Source of the DNA: a virus
Direction: 5' to 3' (one strand)
IMG/VR virus record: IMGVR_UViG_3300037521_000345
Span: 35,004 to 99,003 of that record
DNA: 64,000 nucleotides
Part shown: positions 1,278 to 42,279 of the stretch, piece by piece
How positions within the stretch are numbered: position 1 is the first letter of the stretch
How the letters are laid out: each line of letters begins with the position of its first letter
The notes under the pieces: model-generated
Told to the model about the DNA's origin: nothing
Seen by the model: the letters and a program-made list of their open reading frames with translations, nothing else
The model's database searches: none
Position numbers and translations under genes: made by a program

Positions 1278-4200
1278 ATGATTAAATTTCAATCTTTAGT
1301 TCAATATTCAAGAGTAGTTGATGGAGTTCGTTTCTTTTCAGATAAGGATAGACCGTTCGTATTATTTTATTTCTCCGAGAATTCAACTCTATATGAAGAT
1401 TATCCTAAAATGAATTTAAGAAGAATAGATGCAAGATATATAGTTGTTCCAATAACCCAGATACCTGTCTCTAGATTAACGGGCGATCAAAGAAAAGTTT
1501 ATAAATCTTTTGGTTTACTTCCATTTCAATCAAATCAAGTATATCCCTTAAATGCAAATATTATATTCGATACCAGTAAATATGTTTCCTTGATAGATAA
1601 GATGTATAAACCAACAACATATAGACAAAGAGCAGGTTTTCTTCTAAATAATTTTCTTTATAAATCATTTAATTCGTTTCCTGATAACTATGAAAAAGTT
1701 CTAATTTATACTGTTGATGTTAATAAACCAATCAATTCGTTTATAAATCGAAAGATTTTTCCTATATTAAGAACTATGAAAGGAGATGAAATTTCATTTG
1801 ATCATATGCTTATGGCATTGATTGGAGAGTCGTCAACTAGATATAGACTATTAGTTAAAGACAGAAACTATAAATTTGCAAGAGTTTCTCAATATATAAG
1901 AAAAGTTAAAATGATTAGTTCAGATGATGAGAAAGAACAAGAAGTTAAAACAGCAACGAACTCATTTGATGAGAAAGATTCTAAAGTTAAAACAGCAATT
2001 CAAAACTATTTAAATAAAAATGCTAAAGATCTTGAGAAAGTTTCTAATAATGAACTTGATAAAACAGAAAGAGATAGATTAACAATAGCTTCTATCTTAT
2101 ATAAATTAACAGGAGATTTTCAAAAGTCTCAAAGACTTGCAAAAGCTATTCCTAAAAAAAGTATTAAAACTGCAACTGAAAAGATAAGTCGTTTATATAA
2201 AGATGACTTATTAACAGGTGAAAAAGCTGTTAGTCTTAGTGAATCATATATTGTTCAGGGAATAAATGTTTCCAGGGTAGTTCAAAATAAAACACCAGAG
2301 CATATATTTGACAAAAGAAGAATTGACTTTCAAACAAATTTAAAAAAGGATATGTCAAATGCTTTTAAAGTTTTAGAAAAAGGAAACGTTCCTATTAAAT
2401 TTAATTCATTTAAAATTACTCATAAAAAAGGAAGAGCTGGAGAACTTAAAAAATCAGATGTTTCAATTATAACTGTAAGTATAACAGATGCAGCAGGAAA
2501 GAATCAAACATTTGAGTTTGAAATTCCACAGATTGATCCTGACTCTGGAACATTTAGAGTTAATGGTCAGCGCAAATGTTTAATTAATCAAATAGTGTTG
2601 ACTCCAATAAGTTTTCCTAAACCTTATGATTCCAAATTTGAGAGTTCATATGCAAGATTCCATATCTATAGTAAGAAGACAAAGAGATTGTCGTATCTAG
2701 AAGCATACATGGGTTCCTTCCGCCTACCCTTGATGATACTGTTATCATATTGTTTTGGATTTGAAAAAACAGTTAAAAAATTAGGATTACAATATGAAAT
2801 TGTAAAAGATAAACCTAATAAGGATGTAGTCTTTACAGAAGTTCCTTCTTCATATATGGTATTTAAAAATTTAGATACTGATTTAAAAAAGGAAATGGTA
2901 ACATCATTCACGCACGCTAAAATTAATCAATACAACATTAAAAAAGATTTTTTATCAAAAGATTATTTTGTAGAGTTGATTATACAAATGACTGGACGTG
3001 TCGATTCAACATATCTGATAAATAATAATATTGATTATATCGTTGATCCAGTTGCAAAACAAATTTTAGTTAATCAATTATTACCATATAAATTAGAAGA
3101 TATTATGCATTATATGGCAACTAAATCTGTTGATGGTTATGTTCAAGAAAGAAATGATATTAAATATCAAAGAATTAGAAATTCAGAAATTTTAGTTCAT
3201 TTAGCACAAAAACAATTTCTTAGTTCTTATACTGAATATAAAGAACAGTTTTTATCAGGAAATAAAGATGCTAAATTTAATTTTCCTCCAGGAGTTATAT
3301 TAAGTCAATTTACTAACTTAGAGATAGTTCAAAATATGGAGTATGCAAATCCAGTTGAAGAGATGGCAACAATTACAAAGATTTCTCCAGTTGGAAAAAC
3401 AGTTGGAGGTATTCCAGATAAGGAAGGATTAAATCTTCAAGCTCGAAATGTTCATAGATCATATTTTGGAAATATTGATCCGGTGGATACAGCAGAAGGT
3501 GGTAACATTGGGGTAACCCAACAGTTGACAGTGGACGCATATTTAACATCCTCCCGTGGATTGTTTGGAATTAAAGATTTAAAAAATGATGAAGGAGCTG
3601 GAATATTATCTACAACACTTTCAATGGTTCCATTTATTGAAAACAATGAAGGTGCAAGAATGATAATGGCAGGTAATCAAGGAAAACAAATGTTACCTTT
3701 AAAAAATCCAGAACCTCCTATAGTTCAAACAGGATATGAGTCATTACTTTCAAATGTTTTGTCTAATAATTTTATCAAGAGATCACCTTGTGCTGGAAAA
3801 GTGACAAAAATTACTGGAGATTTTATTGAAATAGCTTGTAATAAAGGTTCTAAAAAGAAAGTTGTTATCACACCAGTTCAATTAAAATCAGGAGCTGGAA
3901 AAAATACATTGAGCACATTTAAACCATCTGTTGAGGTTGGACAATCAGTTAAAAATAAGCAAGTAATTGCAGAGGGAAGTTGTATTTCTGGCGGAACTAT
4001 TTCATTAGGAAGAAATCTTGCTACTTGTTATATGCCTTATCAAGGATATAATTTTGAAGATGGTCTTGTAATAAATGAACGATTAGTATCTGATGATAAA
4101 TTAACTTCTTTACATGGAATTGATGTTGAGGCAACAGTTGATCGTAAAGATAGAATTTTACATATTATTGATATTGGAGCTAAAACTAAAAAGGGTGACC

Positions 4201-5342
4201 CTCTAATAAGAAAGACAGCAGGTGAAATTGAAGAACTATTAGGATTTCAAGAAGAAGAGGAAGAAGGAGTTGATGTATATGAGGGTCAAATAATTACAAA
4301 AAGTCCAGGTGGTCATGTTGTTGATATTGACGTATTTTCTAATATTGATATAGATTCTTTTCCTTCCATTAAAAAGTTAGTTGAAAGAACTAATAAAAAA
4401 TATAAAAAACCTACTAAAGAAAAATTTACAACTAGAGGGGTTTCAATTAAAGGGATATTAATTATATTTAGAATTGAACAAGAGTTAAAAATTGGAGTGG
4501 GAGATAAACTCTGTAACCGATATGGAAATAAAGGTATTATATCTTTAGTTCAAAAAGATGAATTAATGCCAAGAACACCTTGGGGTGAAACAGTTGATAT
4601 TATTATGAATCCTCTTGGAGTTACTGGTCGAATGAATATAGGTCAAATATATGAATTGTATTGTGGTCTTATCTCTAAAGAAGTAGCAAATAGAATGGTT
4701 AAATTGAGCAAAGCTCAAGGCATTGCATTGATGAAAGCTGTAATAACAAGACTTGATAATACAAAAAATAAAAAAATTAGTACATCATTGATTGCTACAA
4801 TGACTGCAATGAGCGATGTAAAATATAAAAAGATGTTAGAGCAAATTCAAAAAGATAAGTTTATACCAATAGTTATTCCTCCATTTCAATCTCCTAAACA
4901 TAAAAGTATTTTAGAAGTATTAAAATTATTAAAATTAAAAACAGGATATAAATTAAAACTTCCAGAGTATAATACAAAAACTCAAAATGCGGTTCCATTT
5001 GGATATGAATATGTTTCTAAATTAGAACATATTTCAGATGCTAAATTACATGCTAGATCAACTGGTCCAACAACTGGAAAAGTTGGTCAACCAACTGCTG
5101 GTAAAAGAAAAGAGGGTGGGCAAAGAATAGGAGAAGGAGATACATGGGCATTAACAAGTTATAATTGTCCTACAATATTATCTGAACTCTTTGGACCTAT
5201 GTCTGATGACTTTGTATCTAAAAATGAAATGATGTCAGAAATTATACAAAATGGAAGAACAGATTTTAAAGAAACAAAAATGTCTCCAACTAGAGATTTA
5301 TTAAAAGCATATTTTATTTCTTTAATGCTAGGAGGTCAATAA
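1278..5342 (+). CDS. RNA polymerase beta subunit (first RNAP set), with long N-terminal extension
   Basis: 1354 residues, about as long as E. coli RpoB. Core motifs are in the C-terminal two thirds: 'GYNFEDGLVINERL', the lysine/arginine-rich 'GDKLCNRYGNKGIIS' near residue 1075, 'MNPLGVTGRMNIGQ' near 1110 and the C-terminal clamp motif 'GGQRIGEGDTWAL'. The first roughly 400 residues do not look like RpoB and hold a charged, low-complexity stretch (near 215-245) with two similar 'VKTA' segments, a possible linker or processing region. It ends by overlapping the next start (TAATG). The extension is lacking in the second beta (39250). By analogy with phiKZ-group virion polymerases this could be the packaged enzyme; that part is inference. 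Confidence 0.93.
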   Translation: MIKFQSLVQYSRVVDGVRFFSDKDRPFVLFYFSENSTLYEDYPKMNLRRIDARYIVVPITQIPVSRLTGDQRKVYKSFGLLPFQSNQVYPLNANIIFDTSKYVSLIDKMYKPTTYRQRAGFLLNNFLYKSFNSFPDNYEKVLIYTVDVNKPINSFINRKIFPILRTMKGDEISFDHMLMALIGESSTRYRLLVKDRNYKFARVSQYIRKVKMISSDDEKEQEVKTATNSFDEKDSKVKTAIQNYLNKNAKDLEKVSNNELDKTERDRLTIASILYKLTGDFQKSQRLAKAIPKKSIKTATEKISRLYKDDLLTGEKAVSLSESYIVQGINVSRVVQNKTPEHIFDKRRIDFQTNLKKDMSNAFKVLEKGNVPIKFNSFKITHKKGRAGELKKSDVSIITVSITDAAGKNQTFEFEIPQIDPDSGTFRVNGQRKCLINQIVLTPISFPKPYDSKFESSYARFHIYSKKTKRLSYLEAYMGSFRLPLMILLSYCFGFEKTVKKLGLQYEIVKDKPNKDVVFTEVPSSYMVFKNLDTDLKKEMVTSFTHAKINQYNIKKDFLSKDYFVELIIQMTGRVDSTYLINNNIDYIVDPVAKQILVNQLLPYKLEDIMHYMATKSVDGYVQERNDIKYQRIRNSEILVHLAQKQFLSSYTEYKEQFLSGNKDAKFNFPPGVILSQFTNLEIVQNMEYANPVEEMATITKISPVGKTVGGIPDKEGLNLQARNVHRSYFGNIDPVDTAEGGNIGVTQQLTVDAYLTSSRGLFGIKDLKNDEGAGILSTTLSMVPFIENNEGARMIMAGNQGKQMLPLKNPEPPIVQTGYESLLSNVLSNNFIKRSPCAGKVTKITGDFIEIACNKGSKKKVVITPVQLKSGAGKNTLSTFKPSVEVGQSVKNKQVIAEGSCISGGTISLGRNLATCYMPYQGYNFEDGLVINERLVSDDKLTSLHGIDVEATVDRKDRILHIIDIGAKTKKGDPLIRKTAGEIEELLGFQEEEEEGVDVYEGQIITKSPGGHVVDIDVFSNIDIDSFPSIKKLVERTNKKYKKPTKEKFTTRGVSIKGILIIFRIEQELKIGVGDKLCNRYGNKGIISLVQKDELMPRTPWGETVDIIMNPLGVTGRMNIGQIYELYCGLISKEVANRMVKLSKAQGIALMKAVITRLDNTKNKKISTSLIATMTAMSDVKYKKMLEQIQKDKFIPIVIPPFQSPKHKSILEVLKLLKLKTGYKLKLPEYNTKTQNAVPFGYEYVSKLEHISDAKLHARSTGPTTGKVGQPTAGKRKEGGQRIGEGDTWALTSYNCPTILSELFGPMSDDFVSKNEMMSEIIQNGRTDFKETKMSPTRDLLKAYFISLMLGGQ

Positions 5343-27951: not shown

Positions 27952-28275
27952 ATGGCAGTAGAAGAACTTATTAGAAATGCTGTAAAATTTTGGGAGACTT
28001 TATATGATGCTGGAGAAGCTACAGTTAGATTTACTAAAAAAAGTGGTGAAGCAAGAAATATGAAATGCACTTTAGATTTTAATAAAATTCCACAGAGACA
28101 TCATCCTAAGACTGTTAATCTGCCAAAAATATTAAAACTGATGCAGAAGAGCGGAATAATCCATGTTTATGATTTAGATAAAGAAGATTGGAGATCAGTT
28201 CCTTTTGAAAGAGTTGATTGGATAGAGACACCAGATCAAAGATTTAAAGTCGTACCATTCAAAAATAGGAGTTAG
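27952..28275 (+). CDS. Sm-like SH3-barrel small protein (WYL_2/DUF2693-like), 107 aa
   Basis: The pattern 'TVRFTKKSGEARNMKCTLDF' then 'IHVYDLDKEDWRSVPFERV' fits the small beta-barrel family described as WYL_2/DUF2693, common in T4-like phages, where a phage protein carries only this barrel. Function unknown; WYL-type barrels bind nucleic acids or ligands. RBS AGGAGGG just before the ATG. Confidence 0.65.
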   Translation: MAVEELIRNAVKFWETLYDAGEATVRFTKKSGEARNMKCTLDFNKIPQRHHPKTVNLPKILKLMQKSGIIHVYDLDKEDWRSVPFERVDWIETPDQRFKVVPFKNRS

Positions 28276-28277
28276 AT

Positions 28278-28658
28278 ATGGGAGAAATTATAGAAGAACT
28301 TTTAAAAAAAATTCCATCAAATGAAATTCTTGTACAGATTAGAGAAATCTGTAAAGAAATTTGGGAAGAAGAAAAAGAAGCAATTGAATATCATCAGGCA
28401 TTACCAAAAGGAGCTAATATATTTCTTGCGATAAGAGTACCTTCTAAACATATAGGAGATATATCATTTCTAACAATTGAAAGAGATCCAATGGAAGAAT
28501 ATGTCTCAAGTTATTACTCAATCAAAATAAAGTATATTGAAAATATAGATCATCCTCAAATGCCAAGAAAATATCAATCTCATAAACTTGAAGGAAGATC
28601 CGCAATAAAAATCTTAAGTGAATTTGCGAAACTTGTAAAATTTTATAGAGGGGAATAA
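28278..28658 (+). CDS. hypothetical protein, 126 aa
   Basis: Not recognised. Amphipathic helical N-terminus followed by beta-rich centre. It is two bases after the previous stop and two before the 884-residue gene, so it is part of the operon leading into the ubiquitin-like cassette, but no motif ties it to that system. Confidence 0.65.
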   Translation: MGEIIEELLKKIPSNEILVQIREICKEIWEEEKEAIEYHQALPKGANIFLAIRVPSKHIGDISFLTIERDPMEEYVSSYYSIKIKYIENIDHPQMPRKYQSHKLEGRSAIKILSEFAKLVKFYRGE

Positions 28659-28660
28659 TT

Positions 28661-31315
28661 ATGCAGCGTGTTAAAGATGATTTTGAAGATTATGATATTC
28701 GTATAAATAGTAGTTTTGCTTCTTTATTACTTTCAAATTTACAAGAAATAGACTCAACAAAAGATCATAAAAAAGCAACACCAGTAAGACGACTAAAAGT
28801 ATTACCAACAGAAGAATATCTTAAAAAATATTCAAAGCTAACATCATATGCTTCAACGATTCTCCCTCCTGGATGTAGATATGTTGAACCTCTTCCAAAT
28901 GGTGGTAAAATATTTATTATTGAAGAACAACCACAATTTAGAACAATTGCAATGAATATAAAATTTGATATTATGTATGAAGAGATCAAAGCACAGAATT
29001 TATTATCAAAATATGAAATTGAAGGATGGTTGGAGAGTACTTCTGAAGGACGTTTGGGAGAGCGTTATCATAAATTAAACCTTGCATTTCCATATGTTAT
29101 ATTTATTGTTTATATTAGTCCTTCAACAAAAGTTGAAAAAGGATATTGTTTCCTTAGAACCAAGCAAATGTTAGGATTATCTGATTATCTTTTTAAAATT
29201 CCTTTATCAAATATTGCAGAAAATCAGGTAATATGTTTTGGTGGTCGTCTGAATAAAAATCTCTATAATACAGATGCAGAAGCTGTTAGAGATACTATTG
29301 ATATATTTTGGACAAGTGTGTTTAATCAAGATTATACATATAATCTTAAAGCATACAATGATGTTTCAGGAATTTCAAATTTCTTGGAATGGCAATATCT
29401 GTCAAGGGAAGATCCAATGTTTATATATCGAGCTGATTGGATTAAATACAAAGGAACTATTTATGATCTTATTAATAGTTTAAAAGAAAGACTTACTTCA
29501 GCAGCTGGTCGATTAGATAATCCTGGATTATCTACATATAGAAGATTTATTGATATATTTACAAAACCTGCAAAAATTGGAGAAATTCGAACTGGAAAAA
29601 TTCGAACTAGAATTGAACCAGTTTATTATGATGTCACTAATAGTTATTTCTTAAACAATGAACTTAGAATAGAAATTGGAGATTCATTTAAAAATCGAAC
29701 AGGTTCTAAAAAATATCATATAATTTCATTTATTGGTCTTAAAGGAAAAGAACCAAAAACTATTAGACTTTCAAAGAATAAAAAACTCTTCAACTTTAAA
29801 CTAAATGAATCTTCAAAAAATTATATATTAAAACAACTTAAAGAAGAACGATATATTAAGAGTATTGAAATTGATGGAATGGAAATTAAAGCTGATGATA
29901 TTATAAACTACAAAGATAATGTGGGAAATATAGTACATAAAAGAGTTCTTTATATTAGAAAAACTGTAGATGGTCGTTCAGAAATAAAACTTGGTACCAA
30001 ATATTTCTTAGCTCAAAATCTTCCATCACCATTAAAAAAGACTAATATAGGTAAACCAGAAATTTATGGTATTAACTTGGAGAAAGGAATAGAGTATTCA
30101 TATTTTCATGCTTCTGCATCTAAAACTATTATTAATAAAGTAGAAAGATGTACATTCGATGCTATTGATGTTGGATTAAATAATGAATTAATATATAGAT
30201 TTAAATCTTTAGAATCTGGAAGAGATTCAAGTTCTATAATTGTTCGTATGAGTCACGAGGATACAAGTTATAGACAAAGGATATATCTAAAATTGAGTGA
30301 TACATTATTGTGTCAAAATTCTCTTATCATTTCAGTTGGTCGATTATTAAGAAAATTTATAGATTATGATAATGAAGGAAATGAAATACCAGCTAAAGTT
30401 TATAAATCTCCTACTCATTATAATATGGATATCAATGCAACTCACGAAATTGCAGATCCAAGACAAGTACATAATCTTATTAAAAATGAAGGTAAAACAT
30501 TTGAGATTGATACACATTTTGGTATTCTTAAATTTGAAATTGGTGATTTAGTCGTAATTGCAAATTGGAAAAATCCTTTAAGTATTTTGGATATAAGAAG
30601 GATTGAGGGATTCAATTTAGAAGATAAGACTGGATCAACTGAACTCTCATTTATATTAGCAGATAAAACGGGTAATTTAACTAAAGAGTTATATGTATTT
30701 AAAGATAATATTAGAATTGGATATATTAGAAAAATTATAACTAGATTTGAAGGTCTATCTTCTGGTATGAAGATAATAGCAAATGTGGGTAGGATATCAA
30801 ATTTTCCAAAGAAAGATACTAATATTATTGTTGGTATTATTACTGATGGTCCTCATCCAATGGTATTATGTTCAAACGGATGCAGTCTATGGTATCAAGA
30901 TGTTATAGATAATTTTAAACAAATCCCAATAGGTTCATCTGAATGGGCAGCAAGTGAGCATGCTACATTAGATCCAAAAAAAATTAAACTTCAAACAGGT
31001 GATATTGTTATACCATATTATAAAAATTCATTAAACGATTGTGGATATTTAATGGTTCAAATAAGACATGCAAATACTCTTAGATATCATCCACTAAGTT
31101 CATATCGTACATCATATGATAACTATAGTTCTGAAGGTGACAATAAAGCTTTTCAACAAGAATCCATACTTGATTGTATTCCAAATCCAAGAGTTTCAAA
31201 ACCAAAACAAGCTGCGGAAGGATATGTCGCTGGAGTACCTAACTTTCATGGGGGAATTGTTTTGAGTGATAAATCTAAATTTCTCTACATAAATGATCCA
31301 AGGAGCTTTATCTAA
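28661..31315 (+). CDS. 884-aa protein with possible E2-like N-terminal domain (PRTRC-B/Prok-E2_D-like)
   Basis: Residues about 85-255 have the order 'FPYVIFIVYISP', 'KGYCFLRTK', 'ENQVICFGG' with C192, then 'DIFWTSVFNQDYTYN'. This resembles the E2-like fold of PRTRC-B proteins, in which a strand ending G-x-(V/I)-C-x-G is followed by an FW...F helix. Residues 260-884 are beta-rich, with several repeats of an OB/SH3-like look and no recognised motif. It starts the gene run JAMM protease, E1, Ubl, second E1-like, E2-like, each coupled or closely spaced, which supports a role in Ubl conjugation or as its scaffold. The E2-fold call is tentative. Confidence 0.6.
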   Translation: MQRVKDDFEDYDIRINSSFASLLLSNLQEIDSTKDHKKATPVRRLKVLPTEEYLKKYSKLTSYASTILPPGCRYVEPLPNGGKIFIIEEQPQFRTIAMNIKFDIMYEEIKAQNLLSKYEIEGWLESTSEGRLGERYHKLNLAFPYVIFIVYISPSTKVEKGYCFLRTKQMLGLSDYLFKIPLSNIAENQVICFGGRLNKNLYNTDAEAVRDTIDIFWTSVFNQDYTYNLKAYNDVSGISNFLEWQYLSREDPMFIYRADWIKYKGTIYDLINSLKERLTSAAGRLDNPGLSTYRRFIDIFTKPAKIGEIRTGKIRTRIEPVYYDVTNSYFLNNELRIEIGDSFKNRTGSKKYHIISFIGLKGKEPKTIRLSKNKKLFNFKLNESSKNYILKQLKEERYIKSIEIDGMEIKADDIINYKDNVGNIVHKRVLYIRKTVDGRSEIKLGTKYFLAQNLPSPLKKTNIGKPEIYGINLEKGIEYSYFHASASKTIINKVERCTFDAIDVGLNNELIYRFKSLESGRDSSSIIVRMSHEDTSYRQRIYLKLSDTLLCQNSLIISVGRLLRKFIDYDNEGNEIPAKVYKSPTHYNMDINATHEIADPRQVHNLIKNEGKTFEIDTHFGILKFEIGDLVVIANWKNPLSILDIRRIEGFNLEDKTGSTELSFILADKTGNLTKELYVFKDNIRIGYIRKIITRFEGLSSGMKIIANVGRISNFPKKDTNIIVGIITDGPHPMVLCSNGCSLWYQDVIDNFKQIPIGSSEWAASEHATLDPKKIKLQTGDIVIPYYKNSLNDCGYLMVQIRHANTLRYHPLSSYRTSYDNYSSEGDNKAFQQESILDCIPNPRVSKPKQAAEGYVAGVPNFHGGIVLSDKSKFLYINDPRSFI

Positions 31316-33093
31316 TGTTTAAAGTAATAGTAGCAGATGGGAAACAAGAATTACCAGATGATGATATTTATTATATAGTTGCAAAAGAAGGTATTTTTAT
31401 TAAAAAGAAATTGGGTATTATGGATAGTGTATCACCAGTAAAAAATATATCAATATTAGAAAGCGTTAAAGCAACAGCTAAAATGAATATTGAAAAAATA
31501 CCTTCATTAGCAGTAGCTAAAATTGCAAATTTCTTTCGTCATGTTTATAAAGAACATAAATCAGAAGCAATTGTATTATTATTTTATAATGAAGAATCTA
31601 AAAAATATAAACTAGTTCCTCCATCACAAAAGGTCAGTCCAGCTTCAATTGAATATAATAGATCAGTTATTATTGATGGATTTACTATGATTGGAGACAT
31701 TCATAGTCATAGTTCAATGTCTGCATTTCATTCAGGTACAGATCAAGGCGATGAAGAATCCTTTGATGGATTACACATTACATTTGGAAATCTAGGTGAT
31801 GAAATGATAAGTATTTCAGCATCAATCGTTTCAAATGGCAATAGAGTAATGGTTGAACCAGAACAATATATGAAAGGGGTATCATTAGAAAGTAAAATTG
31901 ATGAGGTTGAAAAAATTCCTACTACTCGAATTTATAGATGGGTAAATGGAGCTATGGTTGAACAAACTCCAAAGTATTCAACTAAATCTTATAAAACCAT
32001 TCATAAGTTTGATAAGCGATATAAAATAATCAGTCAAACTGCTATCAAAGCTATAGTTCCTCCCAAATGGATAAAGGCAGTTGAACATGGTTTCTCTCCA
32101 TATGGACAATATGGTCAGGCATGGAGAAATGTTTGGGAAGGAAATTATCAAAATGGTCGATGGAATCGTGGTAAATGGATTCCCCCTCAATATAGTAGAG
32201 GATGGAATGAAAACTTTGATCCAGATGTTTGGGCATTGAATAAAAAAGATGAAAAAATACCACCTCAAAATGTTGGAGTTAAAGTTGACCCTATTAAATT
32301 TCCACCACATAATCAAGGTCCAGTCATTACTGATATAACTCCAGAGAAACGCAATGCTTGTGAAACTTGTCCCTTTAAAGATAGAGCATTTGAATATGTT
32401 GCTTCACGTTTAGTAAAAGAAAATAAAGGTACAATAGTAGAAGAAGAAGAAAAAGGTATTTGGGATGAAAAAGAAGTATATGAATGTATGAAGTGTAATG
32501 TAGTTGTATCATTTGATTTTGATGATAATGGCGATGTTATAGGAGATATAATATGTCCTGAATGTAAATCAAATGATCATTTGATTGAACTTGATATGGA
32601 AGAAGATTCATTTGATGATGAAATGAAATTTGATCTTGATCCATATGCACCAGATTCAAAACCTGGTAGTAGTCTTCATTGTGAATCTTGCAATAGTGAT
32701 TTTGATGCATCAATGCTTCGAAGTGATGTTGAAAAAGGAGCAAAATGTCCATTTTGTGAAACATCATTATTTAATGCAGAAGATCTAAATTATGTGAAGG
32801 AAAATGATGAATATGTTTGCAAAGGTTGTTCAACTATGTTTACTTATGATCTAATAAAGAATGATTGTTGTCCTTTTTGTAAAGAACCTCTTATATTAAA
32901 AGGACATGTACCAGGAGAATTATTAAATCCAGATTCAGAAAAAATAGAGCAGGTATCTAAAGAAGAAATACATAACTATCAAGCAGCAAAAGAAAATCCG
33001 CATCCAGCTGATATTATACCTGATCCTTCTGAAAAGAGACAAAGAATAAATCCAATAGAATGGTTAAATGAAAAGTTAGGGAGAAATAAATGA
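31315..33093 (+). CDS. JAMM/JAB-domain metalloprotease with C-terminal zinc ribbons
   Basis: 592 residues. A textbook JAMM motif H129-x-H131-x7-S139-x2-D142 ('DIHSHSSMSAFHSGTD') with an upstream Glu near residue 83. The middle region (about 205-320) is rich in Trp/Tyr/Gly. The C-terminal part has a CETC pair and three four-Cys zinc ribbons (CMKC...CPEC, CESC...CPFC, CKGC...CPFC) between about 340 and 530. JAB enzymes remove or process ubiquitin-like proteins. It is coupled to the genes on both sides (31315; 33090-33093). The zinc ribbons could bind the Ubl or its substrates. Confidence 0.86.
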   Translation: MFKVIVADGKQELPDDDIYYIVAKEGIFIKKKLGIMDSVSPVKNISILESVKATAKMNIEKIPSLAVAKIANFFRHVYKEHKSEAIVLLFYNEESKKYKLVPPSQKVSPASIEYNRSVIIDGFTMIGDIHSHSSMSAFHSGTDQGDEESFDGLHITFGNLGDEMISISASIVSNGNRVMVEPEQYMKGVSLESKIDEVEKIPTTRIYRWVNGAMVEQTPKYSTKSYKTIHKFDKRYKIISQTAIKAIVPPKWIKAVEHGFSPYGQYGQAWRNVWEGNYQNGRWNRGKWIPPQYSRGWNENFDPDVWALNKKDEKIPPQNVGVKVDPIKFPPHNQGPVITDITPEKRNACETCPFKDRAFEYVASRLVKENKGTIVEEEEKGIWDEKEVYECMKCNVVVSFDFDDNGDVIGDIICPECKSNDHLIELDMEEDSFDDEMKFDLDPYAPDSKPGSSLHCESCNSDFDASMLRSDVEKGAKCPFCETSLFNAEDLNYVKENDEYVCKGCSTMFTYDLIKNDCCPFCKEPLILKGHVPGELLNPDSEKIEQVSKEEIHNYQAAKENPHPADIIPDPSEKRQRINPIEWLNEKLGRNK

Positions 33094-33773
33094 ATTATTT
33101 ATCTATCAAAATACTTGGATTGGGCGGTGTAGGTTCAGTATTATGTGAAAAAATATCAAGATTCTTAAACTACTCCAGAGATATTAGAGCAAATATTACG
33201 CTCATAGATGGAGATTCGTATGAAGCAAAAAATTATCAACGTCAAGAGTTTACAATATTAGGAAATAAATCTGAAATTAAAGGGGGTGATTTAGAAGAGA
33301 AATTTCCAGAATTAGAATTAGACTTTTATCCTGAGTATATAAATCAGCACAATATTAATCAAGTTATTAAAACAGATGATATTGTATTTCTATGTGTAGA
33401 TAATCATAAAACCAGAATGATTACTTCTAATTACTGTAATAATTTAAATAACATTACTTTAATTTCTGGGGGAAATGAATTTACAGATGGTAATGTACAA
33501 ATTTATGTCAGAAAAGGAGGTAAAGATTTAACCCCTGACTTATGTGCTTATCATCCAGAAATTGCAAATCCTGTAGATAAATTACCAGAGGAAATGAGTT
33601 GTGAAGAACTCGCCAATTCGGATCCTCAGCTATACTTCACTAATGTGTGGGTAGCTACGATAATGTGTTCCGCATTTTATAATGTGGTTATTAAGAATCA
33701 GATAGGGACATCAGAAATTTATTTCGATATGAAACAGATGTCCATGATTGCGCAGTCAAGAGCTCTGAAATAA
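33090..33773 (+). CDS. E1/ThiF-type adenylyltransferase
   Basis: 227 residues. GLGGVGS (10-16) nucleotide-binding loop, 'IDGDSYEAKNYQRQEF' (39-54) with the E1 Asp, Asn and Arg, 'CVDNHKTR' (102-109), and a candidate catalytic cysteine C171 in 'EEMSCEELANSDPQ' followed by a conserved-looking Asn. The 'SC...A...Q...N' pattern is that of PRTRC ThiF proteins. Such enzymes adenylate a Ubl C-terminus and may form a thioester. Overlaps the JAMM gene by four bases and precedes the Ubl gene. Confidence 0.85.
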   Translation: MNYLSIKILGLGGVGSVLCEKISRFLNYSRDIRANITLIDGDSYEAKNYQRQEFTILGNKSEIKGGDLEEKFPELELDFYPEYINQHNINQVIKTDDIVFLCVDNHKTRMITSNYCNNLNNITLISGGNEFTDGNVQIYVRKGGKDLTPDLCAYHPEIANPVDKLPEEMSCEELANSDPQLYFTNVWVATIMCSAFYNVVIKNQIGTSEIYFDMKQMSMIAQSRALK

Positions 33774-33810: not shown

Positions 33811-34317
33811 ATGTCGAATGAATATTCACGATCGAATTTAGAAGAGATGACAGTAAAAGAACTTCGTCGTCTTTGTGTAGACAACCTGGCAATTCCAGGT
33901 ATGACAAAAAAGCGTAAAGATATTGTTATCGACGCTATCTTGAAAAATGCAAATGCAGGTCCTATCAAATCAGCTAAAACAGCTCCTGCCGAAACTTCCA
34001 TTAAACCAACGCCTGGACCAATTAAAGAGATGGACTTTACTGGCCACTCAATAATGAATAAACCCTATGAGTCATTTGGTAAGAAAACCACAACTACAAT
34101 CCAGGTAACTTGTGGTGCCAGCACAGGAGCTTTTCCTGTTGAAGGAAAAAGTGTTGCAGAAGTTGGTGAGTTCCTGCGTGAAGTTCTTAACGTAGATAAA
34201 TTATCCACTGGATTGGTCAATGGTAAAGAGGTTCGTGGTGATCACGTATTAAAGAATGGAGATAGTTTGGAATTTATGAAACCTTCCGGACGTAAGGGTG
34301 ATCGTAAGGGTTGCTAA
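33811..34317 (+). CDS. ubiquitin-like beta-grasp protein with N-terminal SAP/Rho-N-like domain
   Basis: 168 residues. Residues 8-46 ('LEEMTVKELRRLCVDNLAIP'...) look like a SAP/Rho-N helix-extended-loop-helix, a nucleic-acid-binding module. A Pro/Thr linker follows. Residues 93-158 have a beta-grasp profile: strands around 'TTTTIQVTCG' and 'GAFPVEG', a helix, 'VNGKEVRGDHVLKNGDSLEF', similar to ThiS/MoaD and PRTRC-C type Ubls. The tail GRKGDRKGC would need trimming to expose a C-terminal Gly, a job for the JAMM protease (inference). The gene looks richer in G/C and in CGT/GGT codons than its neighbours and is followed by a hairpin, suggesting high expression. Confidence 0.75.
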   Translation: MSNEYSRSNLEEMTVKELRRLCVDNLAIPGMTKKRKDIVIDAILKNANAGPIKSAKTAPAETSIKPTPGPIKEMDFTGHSIMNKPYESFGKKTTTTIQVTCGASTGAFPVEGKSVAEVGEFLREVLNVDKLSTGLVNGKEVRGDHVLKNGDSLEFMKPSGRKGDRKGC

Positions 34318-34388: not shown

Positions 34389-35291
34389 TTGAACTTCTTT
34401 AATACTATAACAATAATTGGAACAGGAACATTAGGAGGACATCTTTGTAAACATCTTGCTGAAAGTTCAAAAGTATGTAAACTAATTTTAATTGATAAAG
34501 ATATTGTTGACACTAAAGATACAGAAGTTGGTATCTTTCAACCAGTGGATATTCATGAACCAAAAGTTCATGCACTATACCATAAATTTAAAAATTATAA
34601 TACAGAAATTGAACCAATGGTAGAATTTTATATAGATGGTATTACAAATTTACCAATATCAGATCTTACAATTGATTGTAGAAATATATTTGGAAAAAGA
34701 GATTTAAATATTGATATGAAAATGTTTATATCAGAAAGATTTCTAATATTAGATTTTGGAAAAAAGTATGAAAATGAAAATCAACGTAAAGGCGAATATT
34801 CTATTCAACTATCAGAACATGAAATAAGTAGAGCTGCATACTATGCTACAACTTTAATATGTAGTGATATATTGAAAGAACTATTAAAAAGTCAATCAAT
34901 AAAATATATTGATATTGATATTATACAAACAATAATGTTAAAAAGTATTAAAGAATCAAAACAAAAATCCAACATTATTTATGATTTAGATAAGGATACT
35001 AAAAGGTTGAGAAGAATTGATGAAGTTATACAACCTATATTAAAAAAGAATAAAACAACTTCTCTTAAAATAGCAGTCAAAGAAAGAAATTCAATTGTTA
35101 GAGAAGTTTTTAATATGCCAAAGTTTGCAGAAACGACATATAAAATAATTCCACAAGATAGTTTAAAACAACCAGAAGATGTAATTGATATTTTAAAAAA
35201 AGCAATTGAAGGTAAAAGTGAAACTTTAAAATTTCTACCAGTTCTTATAGATGATAAAATTCATATTTTAGAAGATACAGGAGGAGCATAA
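34389..35291 (+). CDS. second E1/ThiF-like Rossmann protein, 300 aa
   Basis: TTG start, with GAAAGGA upstream; no ATG lies near. 'ITIIGTGTLGGHLCKHL' (7-23) and 'LILIDKDIVDTKDTEVG' (32-48) are the glycine loop and Asp motif of the ThiF/E1 Rossmann fold, but the R-Q pair and an obvious catalytic cysteine are absent. It is therefore probably a partner or pseudo-E1, as in heterodimeric E1 enzymes. Overlaps the next gene (TAATG). Confidence 0.7.
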   Translation: MNFFNTITIIGTGTLGGHLCKHLAESSKVCKLILIDKDIVDTKDTEVGIFQPVDIHEPKVHALYHKFKNYNTEIEPMVEFYIDGITNLPISDLTIDCRNIFGKRDLNIDMKMFISERFLILDFGKKYENENQRKGEYSIQLSEHEISRAAYYATTLICSDILKELLKSQSIKYIDIDIIQTIMLKSIKESKQKSNIIYDLDKDTKRLRRIDEVIQPILKKNKTTSLKIAVKERNSIVREVFNMPKFAETTYKIIPQDSLKQPEDVIDILKKAIEGKSETLKFLPVLIDDKIHILEDTGGA

Positions 35292-35761
35292 TGGAACATC
35301 ATTTACAAATATTTGGTTCTAAAATTAGTCCAAGTGTTGATTATAATTTTTACTTTGAAAAAATAATTCCAAAATTTATTATTAAAGATGGAGTTCCAGA
35401 AGTTATAACTGATCTTCATGAAAAATATCATCTAGAAGGATTTATGATTAAGACTATTGGTAAAAAATTATTATCTGTTATGATATATGGAAGGCATCCA
35501 AATGTAGATATTAATACAGATGAACTTTGTTTAAAGGTTGAAGAAAAACGTACAGTTGTTACAGATATACAAGCTTTAAAAGATATATTAATCAATAGAC
35601 TCCAAGTTTGGTATTTCAATGACTGTCATTTTAGACCAGATGAATTTTTCTATAAAACAAAACCGGTTGATGGATTTATGAAAATAGATGTTAATTTTAA
35701 AAAGGGAGAAATATACGATGGAGAAGCACCCTTTAGACGAATATATCCAACTGAAGATTGA
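35291..35761 (+). CDS. E2-like (UBC-fold) conjugating enzyme candidate, 156 aa
   Basis: Residues 69-81 read HPNVDINTDELCL. In canonical E2 enzymes HPN, a short turn, then (I/L)-C-L is the catalytic signature, with eight residues from Asn to Cys; here it is nine (N71 to C80). A strand pair before it ('MIKTIGKKLLSVMIYG') and the helix after it ('DIQALKDILINRLQVW') also fit the UBC fold, and 156 residues is the usual E2 size. Together with the JAMM, E1 and Ubl genes this makes a conjugation pathway likely. No search was run; the fold call is by motif and context. Confidence 0.68.
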   Translation: MEHHLQIFGSKISPSVDYNFYFEKIIPKFIIKDGVPEVITDLHEKYHLEGFMIKTIGKKLLSVMIYGRHPNVDINTDELCLKVEEKRTVVTDIQALKDILINRLQVWYFNDCHFRPDEFFYKTKPVDGFMKIDVNFKKGEIYDGEAPFRRIYPTED

Positions 35762-35942
35762 AGAATTTATAAATCAACATGAATCACAAATTACAAAAAA
35801 AGATGCACAAATTATCATTAAATCTTTAATGCCATTTATTGATGAAATGGTATCAGAAAAAGTAAAATATCATTTTAAATTATTAGCAAATCATTTACTA
35901 GATACATTAAAATCTACAGAGGAGAAATTAAAAGATGCCTAG
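35718..35942 (+). CDS. hypothetical helical protein, 74 aa
   Basis: Start taken at the ATG at 35718 with AAGGGAG upstream, inside the end of the E2-like gene (44-base overlap). Product is Lys/Glu-rich and fully helical in appearance. Its end overlaps the beta' start by eight bases, so it bridges the Ubl cassette and the second RNA polymerase operon. Confidence 0.6.
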   Translation: MEKHPLDEYIQLKIEEFINQHESQITKKDAQIIIKSLMPFIDEMVSEKVKYHFKLLANHLLDTLKSTEEKLKDA

Positions 35943-38619
35943 AATTCTTAACTATAATGAATTTTGTGAACAATTACAGGATGTTCCGTCATTAAAAGTA
36001 ATAGCAAAAAAAAAGTTTCATCCTGAAGGTCTATTTTCTGAACAAATTTTTGGACCAGTAAAAAATTATACTTGTCAGTGTGGTATCTATTACGGACCAT
36101 CCAATGTAAAAACAGGAAGTAAATGTGATCTATGTAAAGTAGATATTGTTAATAGTGATGTAAGACGAACAAGATTTGCGAAAATAGTTTTACCATTTCC
36201 AATAGTCAATCCTTTATTTTATGATTTATTAGTTGAAATAGGTGGAAAGAATTTAAAATCAGCATTAGATGAGTTGATGAAAAATGAAAAAAGTTTTATG
36301 TATAGTGATGGTGTTGAGCATGTGGTTACATCGGATGAATCAAAAAGACCAAGAGAAGGAACTATCTATGAAAGAACAGATGCAATTTATAAATTAGTTA
36401 AAGATATTGCCACAGGATTAGCAAATGAAGGAATTGAAGAGTGGAAAATTGTTCTTGACAATATTGATAATCTATTAACTGACAAAGTAATTGTATTACC
36501 TCCAGATCTAAGACCAGCATCAAGAGGTGGAGGAGGTAAGCATTTAATGGATAAAATCAATAGATATTATGTTCAAATTTTAACTAATAAAAGTCTGATG
36601 CAAGGAACAATTTTAAATATCCAAAGAGATAAGAATCTATATTATACATACTTTAAATTGATACAAAAAAATGTAAACGAATTATATAACAGAATTCTCG
36701 AAAAGATGGCAAAAAAGGAAGGTTTAATTCGTGGAAATATTTTAGGAAAGAGAATAGATTTTTCAGGTCGAGCAGTAATTACACCTGATCCTTCTCTAAC
36801 ATTAACCGAATGTAAACTCCCTTACTTTATGGCATTGGAGATATATAAACTTCCAATTGCCAAACGAATAATAGAGTTAGAAAAATTTAAAGTATTAAAT
36901 GATGCTCTTGACTTTATTGATAATTGCATTGAATTTAAAAAATTTGATCTCTTTGAAATATGTAAAGATACAGTTGAAGGACAAATATGTATATTAAATA
37001 GACAACCATCGCTACATAGACTTGGAATGCTAGGTTTTGAAGTTCTAATTACATCAGATCAAGTTATTAAAATTCATCCATTAGTATGTCCTCCGTTTAA
37101 TGCAGATTTTGATGGAGATCAAATGGCAGTCTATGTTCCTATTACAGAAGGAGCTAAAAATGAAATATCTGAAAAAATGCTTGCAATTAATAATTTAAGC
37201 AGTCCATCAAATGAAAATTTAACAACCACTCCTAGTCAAGATATTATTTTAGGAATTTATTTCTTGACTAAAGGTATCTTTGATGGACAATTAGATGATG
37301 AGACAGGTCTATCTATTTTTAATAGCACGCTTCCAGAGAATTATCCAATCATTGATGAAACTGTTAATGAGAAGAAATTATTAGATATTTTAAATGATAT
37401 AAAAGATAATTATTCAAATGATGAAATTATTAGAGTTTTAGATACTATTAAAACAGTTGGATTTACATATGCAACATTGTTTGGTTGTACTATGTCATTA
37501 GAAAATTTTCAATCTAAAAAATTAACAGATTTAAGAGATAAAATATTTACAAAAAATACAATTAGAGATCAATTAATCGCATTATCAAATAAAGGAATTA
37601 CAAAAGCATTAAGAGATAATTTTGAATATTCATATATGATTGAATCTGGTGCCAGAGGTAGTTGGGATCAAGTTAAACAAATTATTATGACCCGAGGATT
37701 TGTATCGAATTTCGATGGAGAGATTCTTCCAACTCCTATTAAACATAACCTAGTTGAAGGTTTAACTGAAAAAGAATTTTTCTTTTCAACATATGGATGT
37801 CGAAAGGGACTCCTTGATATTGCATTAAATACAGGGACATCAGGATATCTTTCAAGAAAATTAATTTTCACTTGTGCTAATTTACAAATTGATACAAATT
37901 TAGATGACTGTGGAACAACTGATCTTCTTGAAGTTTATGTTAAAACCGAAAGAAAAGCAAGAATGTTAATCAATAAATATCAATCAACTGAAACAGGTTT
38001 GGAAGTAATTACTAAACAAAATTATAAAAATATAATTGGAAAAACAATTTGGATACGAAGTCCAATATTATGTAAGTCGCCTAAACTATGTTGCAAATGC
38101 TATGGAGATTTATATAAAAAACTCAATAGTCGATTTGTTGGAATCATAGCTGCACAGACTCTTGGTGAACGAGGGACTCAATTGGTTCTTAGAACTTTTC
38201 ATACATCAGGATCAGCTGTTATAAAAGGTGAATCTCAAGAAGATGGTTCATTAAAGCAAAAAGATATTATTGGGGATTTAGCAACTGTATCACAAATTCT
38301 ACATAAATTCAAAAATAAAATATATACTGATATAGTTCAAGAATTATTTGAAGTATATAATAAAGACATTTATCATGTCCATTATGAATGTGTTGTTGCT
38401 CAATTAATGTGGAAAGATTATAAGAAATGGAGACTTATAAAAGATAGACATTTATATGCTTCAGATTATTATTCAATACAGTCAGTTCCAAATCAAGAAA
38501 GTTGGATATTAGCAATGGCATTCTCAAATCCTAAAAAGAGTATCTTACATGGAATTTTAAATGAGGGAAAATACTCAGGTATAATGGATAAAATTCTAAA
38601 AGGGGAAAAAATAGTATGA
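35935..38619 (+). CDS. RNA polymerase beta' subunit, complete (second RNAP set)
   Basis: 894 residues in one chain. N-terminal 'GLFSEQIFGPVKNYTCQCG' with a four-Cys zinc site (CQCG ... CDLC), 'NILGKRIDFSGRAVITPDP', 'LNRQPSLHRLGM', catalytic NADFDGDQMAV near residue 390, trigger/bridge region 'GCRKGLLDIALNTGTSGYLS', a second Cys cluster 'CCKCYGDL' and 'TLGERGTQLVLRTFHTSG'. Bacterial RpoC is about 1400 residues, so this is a compact version. Unlike the split subunits of phiKZ-like phages it is unbroken. Forms the second polymerase with the beta at 39250. Confidence 0.95.
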   Translation: MPRILNYNEFCEQLQDVPSLKVIAKKKFHPEGLFSEQIFGPVKNYTCQCGIYYGPSNVKTGSKCDLCKVDIVNSDVRRTRFAKIVLPFPIVNPLFYDLLVEIGGKNLKSALDELMKNEKSFMYSDGVEHVVTSDESKRPREGTIYERTDAIYKLVKDIATGLANEGIEEWKIVLDNIDNLLTDKVIVLPPDLRPASRGGGGKHLMDKINRYYVQILTNKSLMQGTILNIQRDKNLYYTYFKLIQKNVNELYNRILEKMAKKEGLIRGNILGKRIDFSGRAVITPDPSLTLTECKLPYFMALEIYKLPIAKRIIELEKFKVLNDALDFIDNCIEFKKFDLFEICKDTVEGQICILNRQPSLHRLGMLGFEVLITSDQVIKIHPLVCPPFNADFDGDQMAVYVPITEGAKNEISEKMLAINNLSSPSNENLTTTPSQDIILGIYFLTKGIFDGQLDDETGLSIFNSTLPENYPIIDETVNEKKLLDILNDIKDNYSNDEIIRVLDTIKTVGFTYATLFGCTMSLENFQSKKLTDLRDKIFTKNTIRDQLIALSNKGITKALRDNFEYSYMIESGARGSWDQVKQIIMTRGFVSNFDGEILPTPIKHNLVEGLTEKEFFFSTYGCRKGLLDIALNTGTSGYLSRKLIFTCANLQIDTNLDDCGTTDLLEVYVKTERKARMLINKYQSTETGLEVITKQNYKNIIGKTIWIRSPILCKSPKLCCKCYGDLYKKLNSRFVGIIAAQTLGERGTQLVLRTFHTSGSAVIKGESQEDGSLKQKDIIGDLATVSQILHKFKNKIYTDIVQELFEVYNKDIYHVHYECVVAQLMWKDYKKWRLIKDRHLYASDYYSIQSVPNQESWILAMAFSNPKKSILHGILNEGKYSGIMDKILKGEKIV

Positions 38620-39249: not shown

Positions 39250-42200
39250 TTGAAACTAAAAAATCCAGTTTTTAAAATTCAAAGTGAAGATAATAATATC
39301 TTCACAATTCGTAAAAAGGACCAAGAGCTTATACTACCAGTGACAAAAGTTATACTCCAACCTGCAATTGATTTAGGATTTACACTAAATGAACTTACAT
39401 TAAAAGAGTCTAGATTTTCATCAGGAGAGTTATCAAAAACAGTCAAACAAAATCTCACAATCAAGTTACAAAAAGGAACTTCTAATATTGATTTAAGTTT
39501 ACACATTCCTAAATTGATAGATGATAATTATATTATAATTAATGGTCGTAGAAAAATTCCTCTATTTCAGTTATTTGATATTCCAATTGTTACGAGAGGA
39601 GAAAATATAAAACTACGAACCAATGTGGCAACATTAACAATTTTAAAAGATAGAGAACAACCATTTGTTAAAGTTAGTTTTTTAGGAAAAAAAGTTCCTC
39701 TATCAATATTAATGTTTGCGTATTATGGAATTGAAGGAATGATAAACAATAAGGAATTAGATCTTCCAAATGTTAAAATTCAAGATTTAGATGATAATAT
39801 TTTAATGGATCTATTAATAAAGGAGTGTAAACTTATCTATGATGAATTACAAAGCAACACCACACAAGATGATTTTATTTTAGAAATAGGAAGAGCATAT
39901 TCAAAATATAATTCTAAATCTAAAGGTCATGATATTATTTATGCTCTCGATCTAATTCCACAGGTTGATATATTTACAAAAACTTTTTTGACAACAGGAT
40001 CATTATTAGGCGAATTAATTTATACAATTAAGACAGGCGATGTGAGCGATATATTATTTACAAATAAAAGAGTTAGATGTTTTGAGTATATGATTTTTTC
40101 AAGGATATCAAAAATTATATTTGATTTATGCTTTTCAAATAGAACAGCTAAACAACCAAAATTCAACACAAATACAACTCAAATATTAAGTGAATGTAAC
40201 GTTTCAGATATTGTTCAATTTGATTTTTCAATAAATCCTATTGAGGAATTAACAAAATTATCAAGGATAAGTCTTCTCGGTCCAGGAGGATTTAAAAGAG
40301 AAAATATTCCAAAACATTTAAGAGATATATGCCCCACAATGTTTGGTCGTATTTGTCCCGTAGACACCCCAGACCGCGATAATTGCGGAGTTCTACAGAA
40401 CTTAATACCTAATGTCAAGTTAGACCAACATCTCCGATTTACGAATGAAATATGCGAGAAACAACCCATATCAATACCTGTATCTCTCACTCCATTTTGT
40501 GAGCATGACGATCAAACAAGATTGCAAATGGCATCATCACAAATGAGACAATCTATTATGTTAAAAGAATTTGATCAACCAATGATTAAATCAGGTTGTG
40601 AAGGATTATATACAGATTATACACAGTTCATTAAACGTGCTAAAAAGAATGGGGAAGTCACTCATCTAGATGAGAAGTATTTGATGGTTGTATATGATGA
40701 TAAAACAATTGATATCTTTGATGTTGAATATAGAAATATCTATGTTGAACATATGGATATTATGAAACTCTATGTTAACGTAGGTGATAAATTTAAAGCT
40801 GGGGATATATTAGCAGAAAGTAATTTTGTTCAAGATGGCGAAATTAATTTTGGTAGAAATCTATTAACAGGAGTGATGATTTATTATGGATGGAACTATG
40901 AAGATGGAATTATCATATCTGATAAATTAATACAAAATGATGCTTTTACATCAGTCCATTTTAAAGATTTATCATTTGTAATCCCTCCAATTAAAGTTTT
41001 GATATCTCTATCAGAAAATGAATACAGACCATTACCAAAAGCTCTTGAAAAAATTGGTCAAGGAGATACTTATGCAATTTTAAAAACTCTTTCACTTGAT
41101 GATTTTTATTCTGTTTTTACAGAAAGCTCTAAATTAGTAGCAGAAAAATCATATATAATACCCAAGATAAAAATATTTGCAAATGAATGGAATACAGATA
41201 TTCCTGAATATAAAGAGTGGGTAGAAAAGACTATTGAAACACAACAGAAAAAAGAGTCAATCTTTAGAACAATAATTAAAGAAAAGTTACCAAGAGAACA
41301 AGCAATAAAATTTATAAGAGAAAGAGATTTAGAACTTTTCTCATTCGTTGGTAAATATAAAATTAAGAAAGAAAAAATAAATGGAATATATGTAGAGATA
41401 TCTGGAATTCATTTTAGATCAATCAAGGTTGGAGATAAGATCGCAAATAGACATGGGAATAAAGGAGTTATATCTAAAATATTACCTCAAGAGATGATGC
41501 CACAATTAGAGGATGGTAGACATTTAGATGTTTGTATTAATCCATTAGGTATTATATCTAGAATGAATATTGGTCAACTATTTGAACTACATCTAACAAT
41601 GTCATTATATGATCTACAACAAAATGCATTACAAATGTTAAAGAAAGAAAAACCACAAGATCAGATCAAAAATTATTTAACTGGATATATTCAAATTGTT
41701 GATAAAACAAAAGATAGTTGGTATACAAAACAATTTGTAGAACAGCTTCCAGATATTATAGATATTCCCTTTATTAAGGCATTTTCATTAATACAACCTC
41801 CATTTGAATCTTGTCATTCAGAGGATTTAGAAAAAGCATTAAAATATACAAATACAGGATTTACATATAAACTATATGATCCAATTGTAAGAAAGAATTT
41901 TTTAAATCAAATTTCAGTTGGATATATATATTTTTTAAGAATGGTTCATATAGCAGAAGAAAAGTTGGCAGCAAGAGGAATTGGTTCGTATGCAAAACGA
42001 ACATTACAACCACTGGGTGGGAGAAAAAATAAAGGTGGTCAGAGATGTGGTGAAATGGAAACTGCTTGTATTATCGGACATGATGCTCCAAAGAATTTAT
42101 TTGAATTCTTAACAACAAAATCAGACTGTATAGATTTAAAAAATGATTACATTAGAAATTATATTAATACTGGACGAGTAGTAAAAACTGAAGATTTAGA

Positions 42201-42279
42201 TCCAATGCCAGAATCAGTTAAATTATTAAATTCATATTTAACAGTATTAGGGGTAGATTATCATGGCAGTTCAAAATGA
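39250..42279 (+). CDS. RNA polymerase beta subunit, complete (second RNAP set)
   Basis: 1009 residues. TTG start, supported by AAGGAGGAG eight bases upstream and no nearby ATG. Motifs: 'GPGGFKRENIPKHLRDI', 'FGRICPVDTPDRDNCG', 'YGWNYEDGIIISD', 'GDKIANRHGNKGVIS', 'INPLGIISRMNIGQ' and 'GGRKNKGGQRCGEMETACI'. It lacks the 350-residue N-terminal extension of the first beta, so the two polymerases are clearly distinct. Unsplit, in contrast to many giant-phage beta subunits. No alpha, omega or sigma gene was recognised in the window. Confidence 0.95.
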   Translation: MKLKNPVFKIQSEDNNIFTIRKKDQELILPVTKVILQPAIDLGFTLNELTLKESRFSSGELSKTVKQNLTIKLQKGTSNIDLSLHIPKLIDDNYIIINGRRKIPLFQLFDIPIVTRGENIKLRTNVATLTILKDREQPFVKVSFLGKKVPLSILMFAYYGIEGMINNKELDLPNVKIQDLDDNILMDLLIKECKLIYDELQSNTTQDDFILEIGRAYSKYNSKSKGHDIIYALDLIPQVDIFTKTFLTTGSLLGELIYTIKTGDVSDILFTNKRVRCFEYMIFSRISKIIFDLCFSNRTAKQPKFNTNTTQILSECNVSDIVQFDFSINPIEELTKLSRISLLGPGGFKRENIPKHLRDICPTMFGRICPVDTPDRDNCGVLQNLIPNVKLDQHLRFTNEICEKQPISIPVSLTPFCEHDDQTRLQMASSQMRQSIMLKEFDQPMIKSGCEGLYTDYTQFIKRAKKNGEVTHLDEKYLMVVYDDKTIDIFDVEYRNIYVEHMDIMKLYVNVGDKFKAGDILAESNFVQDGEINFGRNLLTGVMIYYGWNYEDGIIISDKLIQNDAFTSVHFKDLSFVIPPIKVLISLSENEYRPLPKALEKIGQGDTYAILKTLSLDDFYSVFTESSKLVAEKSYIIPKIKIFANEWNTDIPEYKEWVEKTIETQQKKESIFRTIIKEKLPREQAIKFIRERDLELFSFVGKYKIKKEKINGIYVEISGIHFRSIKVGDKIANRHGNKGVISKILPQEMMPQLEDGRHLDVCINPLGIISRMNIGQLFELHLTMSLYDLQQNALQMLKKEKPQDQIKNYLTGYIQIVDKTKDSWYTKQFVEQLPDIIDIPFIKAFSLIQPPFESCHSEDLEKALKYTNTGFTYKLYDPIVRKNFLNQISVGYIYFLRMVHIAEEKLAARGIGSYAKRTLQPLGGRKNKGGQRCGEMETACIIGHDAPKNLFEFLTTKSDCIDLKNDYIRNYINTGRVVKTEDLDPMPESVKLLNSYLTVLGVDYHGSSK

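Follow-up and report, generated by a model that had tools for sequence, protein, structure and literature searches.

Is a phage protein of 156 residues that carries an HPN...C motif a ubiquitin-conjugating (E2) enzyme? The question is raised by P0001, a protein encoded in a 64,000-nt stretch (the window) of the 99,003-base virus record IMGVR_UViG_3300037521_000345. This record encodes a terminase, topoisomerase II and RNA polymerase subunits, and its source belongs to the tailed phages that have a multi-subunit RNA polymerase of their own. P0001 is likely a small, divergent and reduced E2-like conjugating enzyme of a phage ubiquitin-like system, which would hold a modifier on C80 with the aid of N71. 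It retains the complete HPN while being smaller than a ubiquitin-conjugating (UBC) domain, and appears from its sequence and predicted structure to work like an E2.

The P0001 gene and its conserved motif

The gene, its motif and its translation signal lie as follows:

35291..35761, + strand: P0001, E2-like protein of 156 aa (translation, homolog alignment, profile matches, AlphaFold model, structural alignment)
35495..35533, + strand: HPNVDINTDELCL motif, residues 69-81, with the candidate catalytic Cys80 at 35528-35530 (translation, alignment)
35279..35284, + strand: AGGAGG Shine-Dalgarno sequence of P0001, within the 3′ end of the upstream gene, ThiF2

The reading frame looks genuine: it has a Shine-Dalgarno sequence, its ATG overlaps the stop codon of ThiF2 (TAATG) and it is conserved in relatives. 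The opposite strand holds no open frame. An earlier note, made from the letters of this DNA alone, had read HPNVDINTDELCL at residues 69-81 (H69, P70, N71, C80 and L81), exactly as it stands in the translation of 35291-35761. The HPN-x7-(I/L)-C-L spacing of the motif is one residue longer than in many E2s.

As a single query against phage records, Pfam, PHROGs, NCBIfam, PADLOC and PDB, P0001 drew near-identical relatives or none, which was of no help, and no family in the Pfam, PHROG, NCBIfam and PADLOC libraries covers the protein. Among the papers searched, none describes a phage E2 like P0001. We reached its relatives through a better-conserved neighbor, the E1-like enzyme ThiF1, which led to 43 loci on viral contigs and 47 on genome contigs. 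Profiles of the cassette genes run on these loci recovered 36 distinct P0001 homologs, every one between ThiF2 and an RNA polymerase beta' gene, and 35 of the 36 form the rows of our alignment.

Pairwise identity in this alignment has a median of 27% and a minimum of 14%. Of its 114 well-filled columns just three, H69, N71 and C80, are invariant. The complete HPN occurs in 34 of the 36 sequences, while C80 is found in all 35 aligned rows and in the 36th sequence too. The two exceptions read HVN (L041) and HAN (L053), retaining the His, the Asn and the Cys, and changes of both types also occur in the Asgard E2s that we collected for comparison. The motif is thus real and not a product of chance. 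The earlier note had staked its reading on HPN and C80 being kept in homologs, and on this point it came through clearly. One homolog differs in size: in the 306-aa product of L060:11419-12339, a long N-terminal extension ahead of the motif puts HPN at residue 238, and the protein matches no Pfam family.

Resemblance of P0001 to E2 enzymes

Searched against 177,635 PDB sequences, the P0001-family profile gave a single match, to the ubiquitin E2 Pex4 (5nkz), which is weak (E 0.04) and aligns both the HPN and the Cys in exact register. The Pex4 motif, HPN-VNFKTGE-I-C-L, has the same spacing as that of P0001, and in this shared HPN-x7-I/L-C-L spacing and register Pex4 is the closest eukaryotic E2. 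A smaller P0001 alignment gave four weak matches in the PDB, two of them E2s ranked behind one unrelated protein, with Pex4 weaker and not first. The E2 family UQ_con (PF00179) weakly matched 2 of 35 members (best E 0.0059); its curated cut-off was not reached, and P0001 itself had no match to it.

Comparison with Asgard E2s points the same way. When the family profile was run on 382 reading frames, three Asgard E2s came out on top (E 0.001; next 0.074). When hhalign aligns the P0001 family with the Asgard E2s, the HPN, the C and the helix each fall on their counterparts, and the score of 19.6 exceeds those of all 60 column-shuffled controls (maximum 16.3) and seven other cassette families (maximum 14.9).

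The AlphaFold model of P0001 is confident (core pLDDT, the predicted local distance difference test, of 91-98) and contains the strand pair ahead of the motif (51-56 and 59-65) and the helix behind it (93-104) that the earlier note had described. We applied the structural aligner VIA to the first 1000 candidates of Foldseek. The top 50 matches of the model are E2 enzymes only, with Z of 4.0-5.3, the best being 1yrv (Z 5.3 over 102 residues).

Several observations weigh against an E2 assignment. The VIA Z values lie below 8, a range that may reflect just a common arrangement, and Foldseek searches of the model against the PDB and viral models returned no match. The absolute hhalign probability for the Asgard E2s is low (2.2%), and a reverse search with the Asgard E2 profile does not retrieve P0001. 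Of the helices of the UBC domain, the model is missing the N-terminal one and the last ones. In the P0001 slot itself, the most divergent protein (L099) reads YPT...C and has lost the HPN, and another divergent protein (L064) shows neither a clear HPN...C nor a clear Cys. Finally, the cassette already carries another E2, an 884-aa protein.

Taken together, P0001 probably has an E2-like fold and site, with the fold itself weakly shown by the model: an all-E2 top 50 in structural alignment speaks for the UBC-like fold, and a blank Foldseek search and VIA Z of at most 5.3 speak against it. The interpretation of the earlier note is thus supported in part. For an E2-like protein speak the conservation of HPN and Cys, the PDB profile match, the structural alignments and a cassette of ubiquitin-like (Ubl), E1, E2 and JAB genes, although the UBC-like fold on which the note also staked its reading is borne out only weakly. 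Its contrast between a true conjugating enzyme and a reduced relative is not supported, as P0001 has the full HPN and yet is also reduced.

The canonical UBC domain has four helices, the N-terminal one binding E1 (PMC11354881). This layout, including the E1-binding helix, is absent from the P0001 model, in which only a short helix (83-86) and a long one (93-104) follow the Cys. Compared with eukaryotic E2s, the first and last helices are missing, beside the weak UQ_con matches. We count P0001 as reduced because in its model nothing helical precedes the first strand and only a single long helix follows the Cys, and because it scores below every curated E2 threshold. Since neither the four-helix layout nor the curated score was found, we do not file it as a canonical UBC member.

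The weak absolute profile scores and the lack of a Foldseek E2 match above threshold would also suit a small alpha/beta fold unrelated to E2s, in which H-x-N...C serves another chemistry, such as that of a metal site or of a Cys-His-Asn hydrolase acting as a second deconjugating enzyme. We regard this as very improbable: E2 enzymes came up both in the PDB profile search, which was blind, and in the structural alignment, and the second conserved Cys, Cys112, is not invariant (28/35), so a two-Cys metal site is unlikely.

The cassette around P0001

P0001 is the last gene of a cassette that runs into the RNA polymerase genes, in this order:

28661..31315, + strand: 884-aa protein with a PRTRC-type E2 (Prok-E2_D-like) region and a conserved N...C
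31315..33093, + strand: JAB/JAMM peptidase (PRTRC_A-like), with an intact HSHx10D at residue 130
33090..33773, + strand: ThiF1, E1-like adenylating enzyme
33811..34317, + strand: Ubl, with a SAP/Rho_N-like N-terminus and a beta-grasp-like C-terminal part (weak TGS/ThiS matches)
34389..35291, + strand: ThiF2, degenerate E1-like protein of 300 aa, with an adenylation fold in residues 1-183 and the tail TGGA-COOH
35935..38619, + strand: phage RNA polymerase beta'-like subunit, 3′ of P0001 in all P0001 loci
39250..42279, + strand: phage RNA polymerase beta-like subunit

In P0001 loci, the E1-like, Ubl and JAMM partners share the cassette with P0001. The cellular relatives have the core of E2_D, JAB, ThiF1 and Ubl in varied combinations, without ThiF2 or P0001. 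ThiF1 keeps its catalytic residues, with GxGGxG, D40, D42, N48, R51, Q52, K60, K64 and D104 invariant and C171 as candidate catalytic Cys; those of the JAMM peptidase are intact as well. The C-terminal end of the Ubl reads KPSGRKG, then DRKGC.

The 884-aa PRTRC-type E2 had been missed by the earlier note, and P0001 is therefore an additional E2-like component. A profile comparison of the two aligned N...C without significance (P 0.33), and we rejected P0001 as a duplicate of the larger protein. With one E2 and its conserved Cys already in the cassette, P0001 might instead have an E2 fold but act as a non-covalent adaptor of the 884-aa protein, similar to UEV or RWD proteins, with a structural or regulatory Cys. 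Its reduction in the model and the L064 slot protein without a clear Cys would fit such a role, which we nevertheless hold to be improbable, given that Cys80, His69 and Asn71 are invariant in 35/35 while all else drifts and that RWD-type relatives lose the Cys (PMC1779556).

If P0001 is a conjugating enzyme, as we favor, ThiF1 would adenylate the C-terminus of the modifier, which would then be passed to Cys80 of P0001 as a thioester. A target amine would attack, with Asn71 stabilizing the oxyanion and His69 holding Asn71 in place, the roles described for these HPN residues (PMC11354881). The JAMM peptidase may trim the modifier and reverse the conjugation. ThiF2 would be the dedicated partner of P0001, with which it appears translationally coupled in the window, either as a pseudo-E1 scaffold or as a modifier itself. 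Judging by the SAP-like part of the Ubl and by the fixed place beside the RNA polymerase, the target may lie in transcription or among nucleic acids.

The core of the cassette is PRTRC-like, with all matches well below curated cut-offs: the JAB protein matches PRTRC_A (E 4.3e-15; 55.8/101.8 bits), ThiF1 matches PRTRC_ThiF (E 4.7e-8; 32.6/144.75 bits) and the Prok-E2_D match reaches 18.2/25 bits. Of the PRTRC genes, those for a Ubl, a JAB, an E1-like and an E2-like protein are all present. Presumably, operon type 6d is the PRTRC system, given the shared gene set. Operons of this type likewise place genes for a Ubl with C-terminal glycine, a JAB, an E1-like and a Prok-E2_D-like protein side by side (Iyer et al. 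2006, PMC1779556). By comparison, the phage version adds ThiF2, P0001, the SAP-like N-terminus of the Ubl, the CxxC repeats of the JAB protein and a place beside the phage RNA polymerase. Whereas the 6d E2 is without the upstream His (PMC1779556), P0001 has the full HPN. BilB of the Bil defense system is similarly a bacterial E2 that stands alone and shares its operon with Ubl, E1 and JAB, but its motif is CEHH, in which the Glu and both His lie downstream of the Cys (PMC11354881). In P0001 the HPN lies upstream, and no downstream Glu or His is found among alignment columns conserved at 70% or more.

Such a system would place Ubl conjugation in the phages themselves, through a minimal E2-like protein with a full HPN at a fixed place beside their own RNA polymerase. 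To our knowledge, the systems of Ubl conjugation studied to date in bacteria, Bil and Cap2 in the cyclic oligonucleotide-based antiphage signaling system (CBASS), serve anti-phage defense. A group of uncultured giant-type phages appears to carry a full ubiquitin-like tagging kit that includes the previously undescribed P0001, with the HPN...C signature found at the active site of the enzymes that attach ubiquitin in human cells. This makes two questions testable, namely what minimum size an HPN-type E2 can have and how protein tagging benefits a phage.

ThiF2 and a possible second modifier

P0001 is never found without ThiF2. Among the 90 ThiF1 loci (several on the same contig and all related, hence not independent events), ThiF2 occurs in 40, all beside RNA polymerase, and P0001 in 38, with ThiF2 present in 38/38 P0001 loci. 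The remaining 2/40 ThiF2 loci have a divergent protein in the P0001 slot.

Residues 1-183 of ThiF2 have an E1 fold that is closest to Cap2 (Z 18.2), followed by SAE1 and APPBP1 (~16). The protein retains D36, K59 and D96 but not the Arg-Gln pair, which ThiF1 keeps without exception, and in this it resembles the degenerate half of a eukaryotic E1 pair. Its last residue is Ala in 36/38, encoded by GCA (19), GCT (9), GCC (4) and GCG (4). Because these synonymous codons vary freely, it is the protein end and not the ribosome-binding site that is conserved. We rejected this conservation as a by-product of the P0001 Shine-Dalgarno sequence for the same reason, and the end also persists where P0001 starts farther off. 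The constraint on this C-terminal Ala acts on the protein, at a free end, as it does in proteins that are conjugated through their C-terminus, and it hints at a second modifier. Predicted secondary structure suggests a Ubl-like domain in the C-terminal region of ThiF2. Tested as a beta-grasp Ubl by sequence, this region gave no significant result (14.9, against shuffles of up to 14.6 and controls of up to 15.2).

These features allow for a special case of the conjugating-enzyme reading that differs in what P0001 carries. ThiF2 would be activated via its C-terminal Ala (TGAA/TGGA-COOH) and placed on Cys80, and the Ubl, which ends in glycine, would travel via the 884-aa PRTRC-type E2. Such an arrangement would recall Cap2, which conjugates the C-terminus of a cGAS/DncV-like nucleotidyltransferase (CD-NTase). 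We consider this rather unlikely. The pairing of ThiF2 and P0001 without exception over the 90 ThiF1 loci, the terminal Ala in 36/38 with varying synonymous codons and the division of labor suggested by two E2-like proteins argue for it, as do the C-termini of Cap2-conjugated CD-NTases, conserved as Gly or Ala (PMC10097602). The non-significant beta-grasp test argues against it, and the conserved C-terminus could equally serve as a docking tail.

The likeness to Cap2 of type II CBASS thus lies in the E1 fold of ThiF2 and in its C-terminal Ala, which recalls the CD-NTases conjugated by that enzyme (PMC10097602). Cap2 joins E1 and E2 domains in one chain, whereas the phage cassette has separate genes and no recognized CD-NTase. 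A full two-branch cascade, in which ThiF1 feeds both the Ubl with its nucleic-acid-binding-like domain via the PRTRC-type E2 and ThiF2 with its free TGAA end via the HPN-type P0001, modifying phage transcription or host proteins, seems decidedly unlikely. If true, the tag would be a pseudo-E1, a modifier of a new kind, and the eukaryote-type HPN site would have been separately retained or re-acquired. Whether P0001 carries ThiF2 or the Ubl, the strict pairing of P0001 with ThiF2 and the conserved ThiF2 C-terminus offer a concrete handle for biochemistry.

Further observations concern other parts of the cassette. After its JAMM domain, the JAB protein (31315-33093) has seven CxxC pairs, likely several zinc ribbons. 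The N-terminal SAP/Rho_N-like domain (PF07498, E 2.6e-4) of the Ubl (33811-34317) occurs in phage Ubls, and the shorter cellular Ubls appear to be without it. In most phage loci, the conserved cassette begins with a WYL_2 (Sm-like) gene (27952-28275) and a gene for 126 aa with no function assigned (28278-28658). Five loci (L061, L062, L066, L098 and L106) have two or more open reading frames related to the 884-aa PRTRC-type E2. At loci L067, L068 and L099, cassette members lie on contigs that were binned with archaeal metagenome-assembled genomes (Thermoplasmatales, Heimdallarchaeota and Woesearchaeota) but are probably viral. The window also encodes two differing RNA polymerase beta-like subunits, at 1278-5342 (1354 aa) and 39250-42279 (1009 aa), perhaps belonging to virion and non-virion polymerases.
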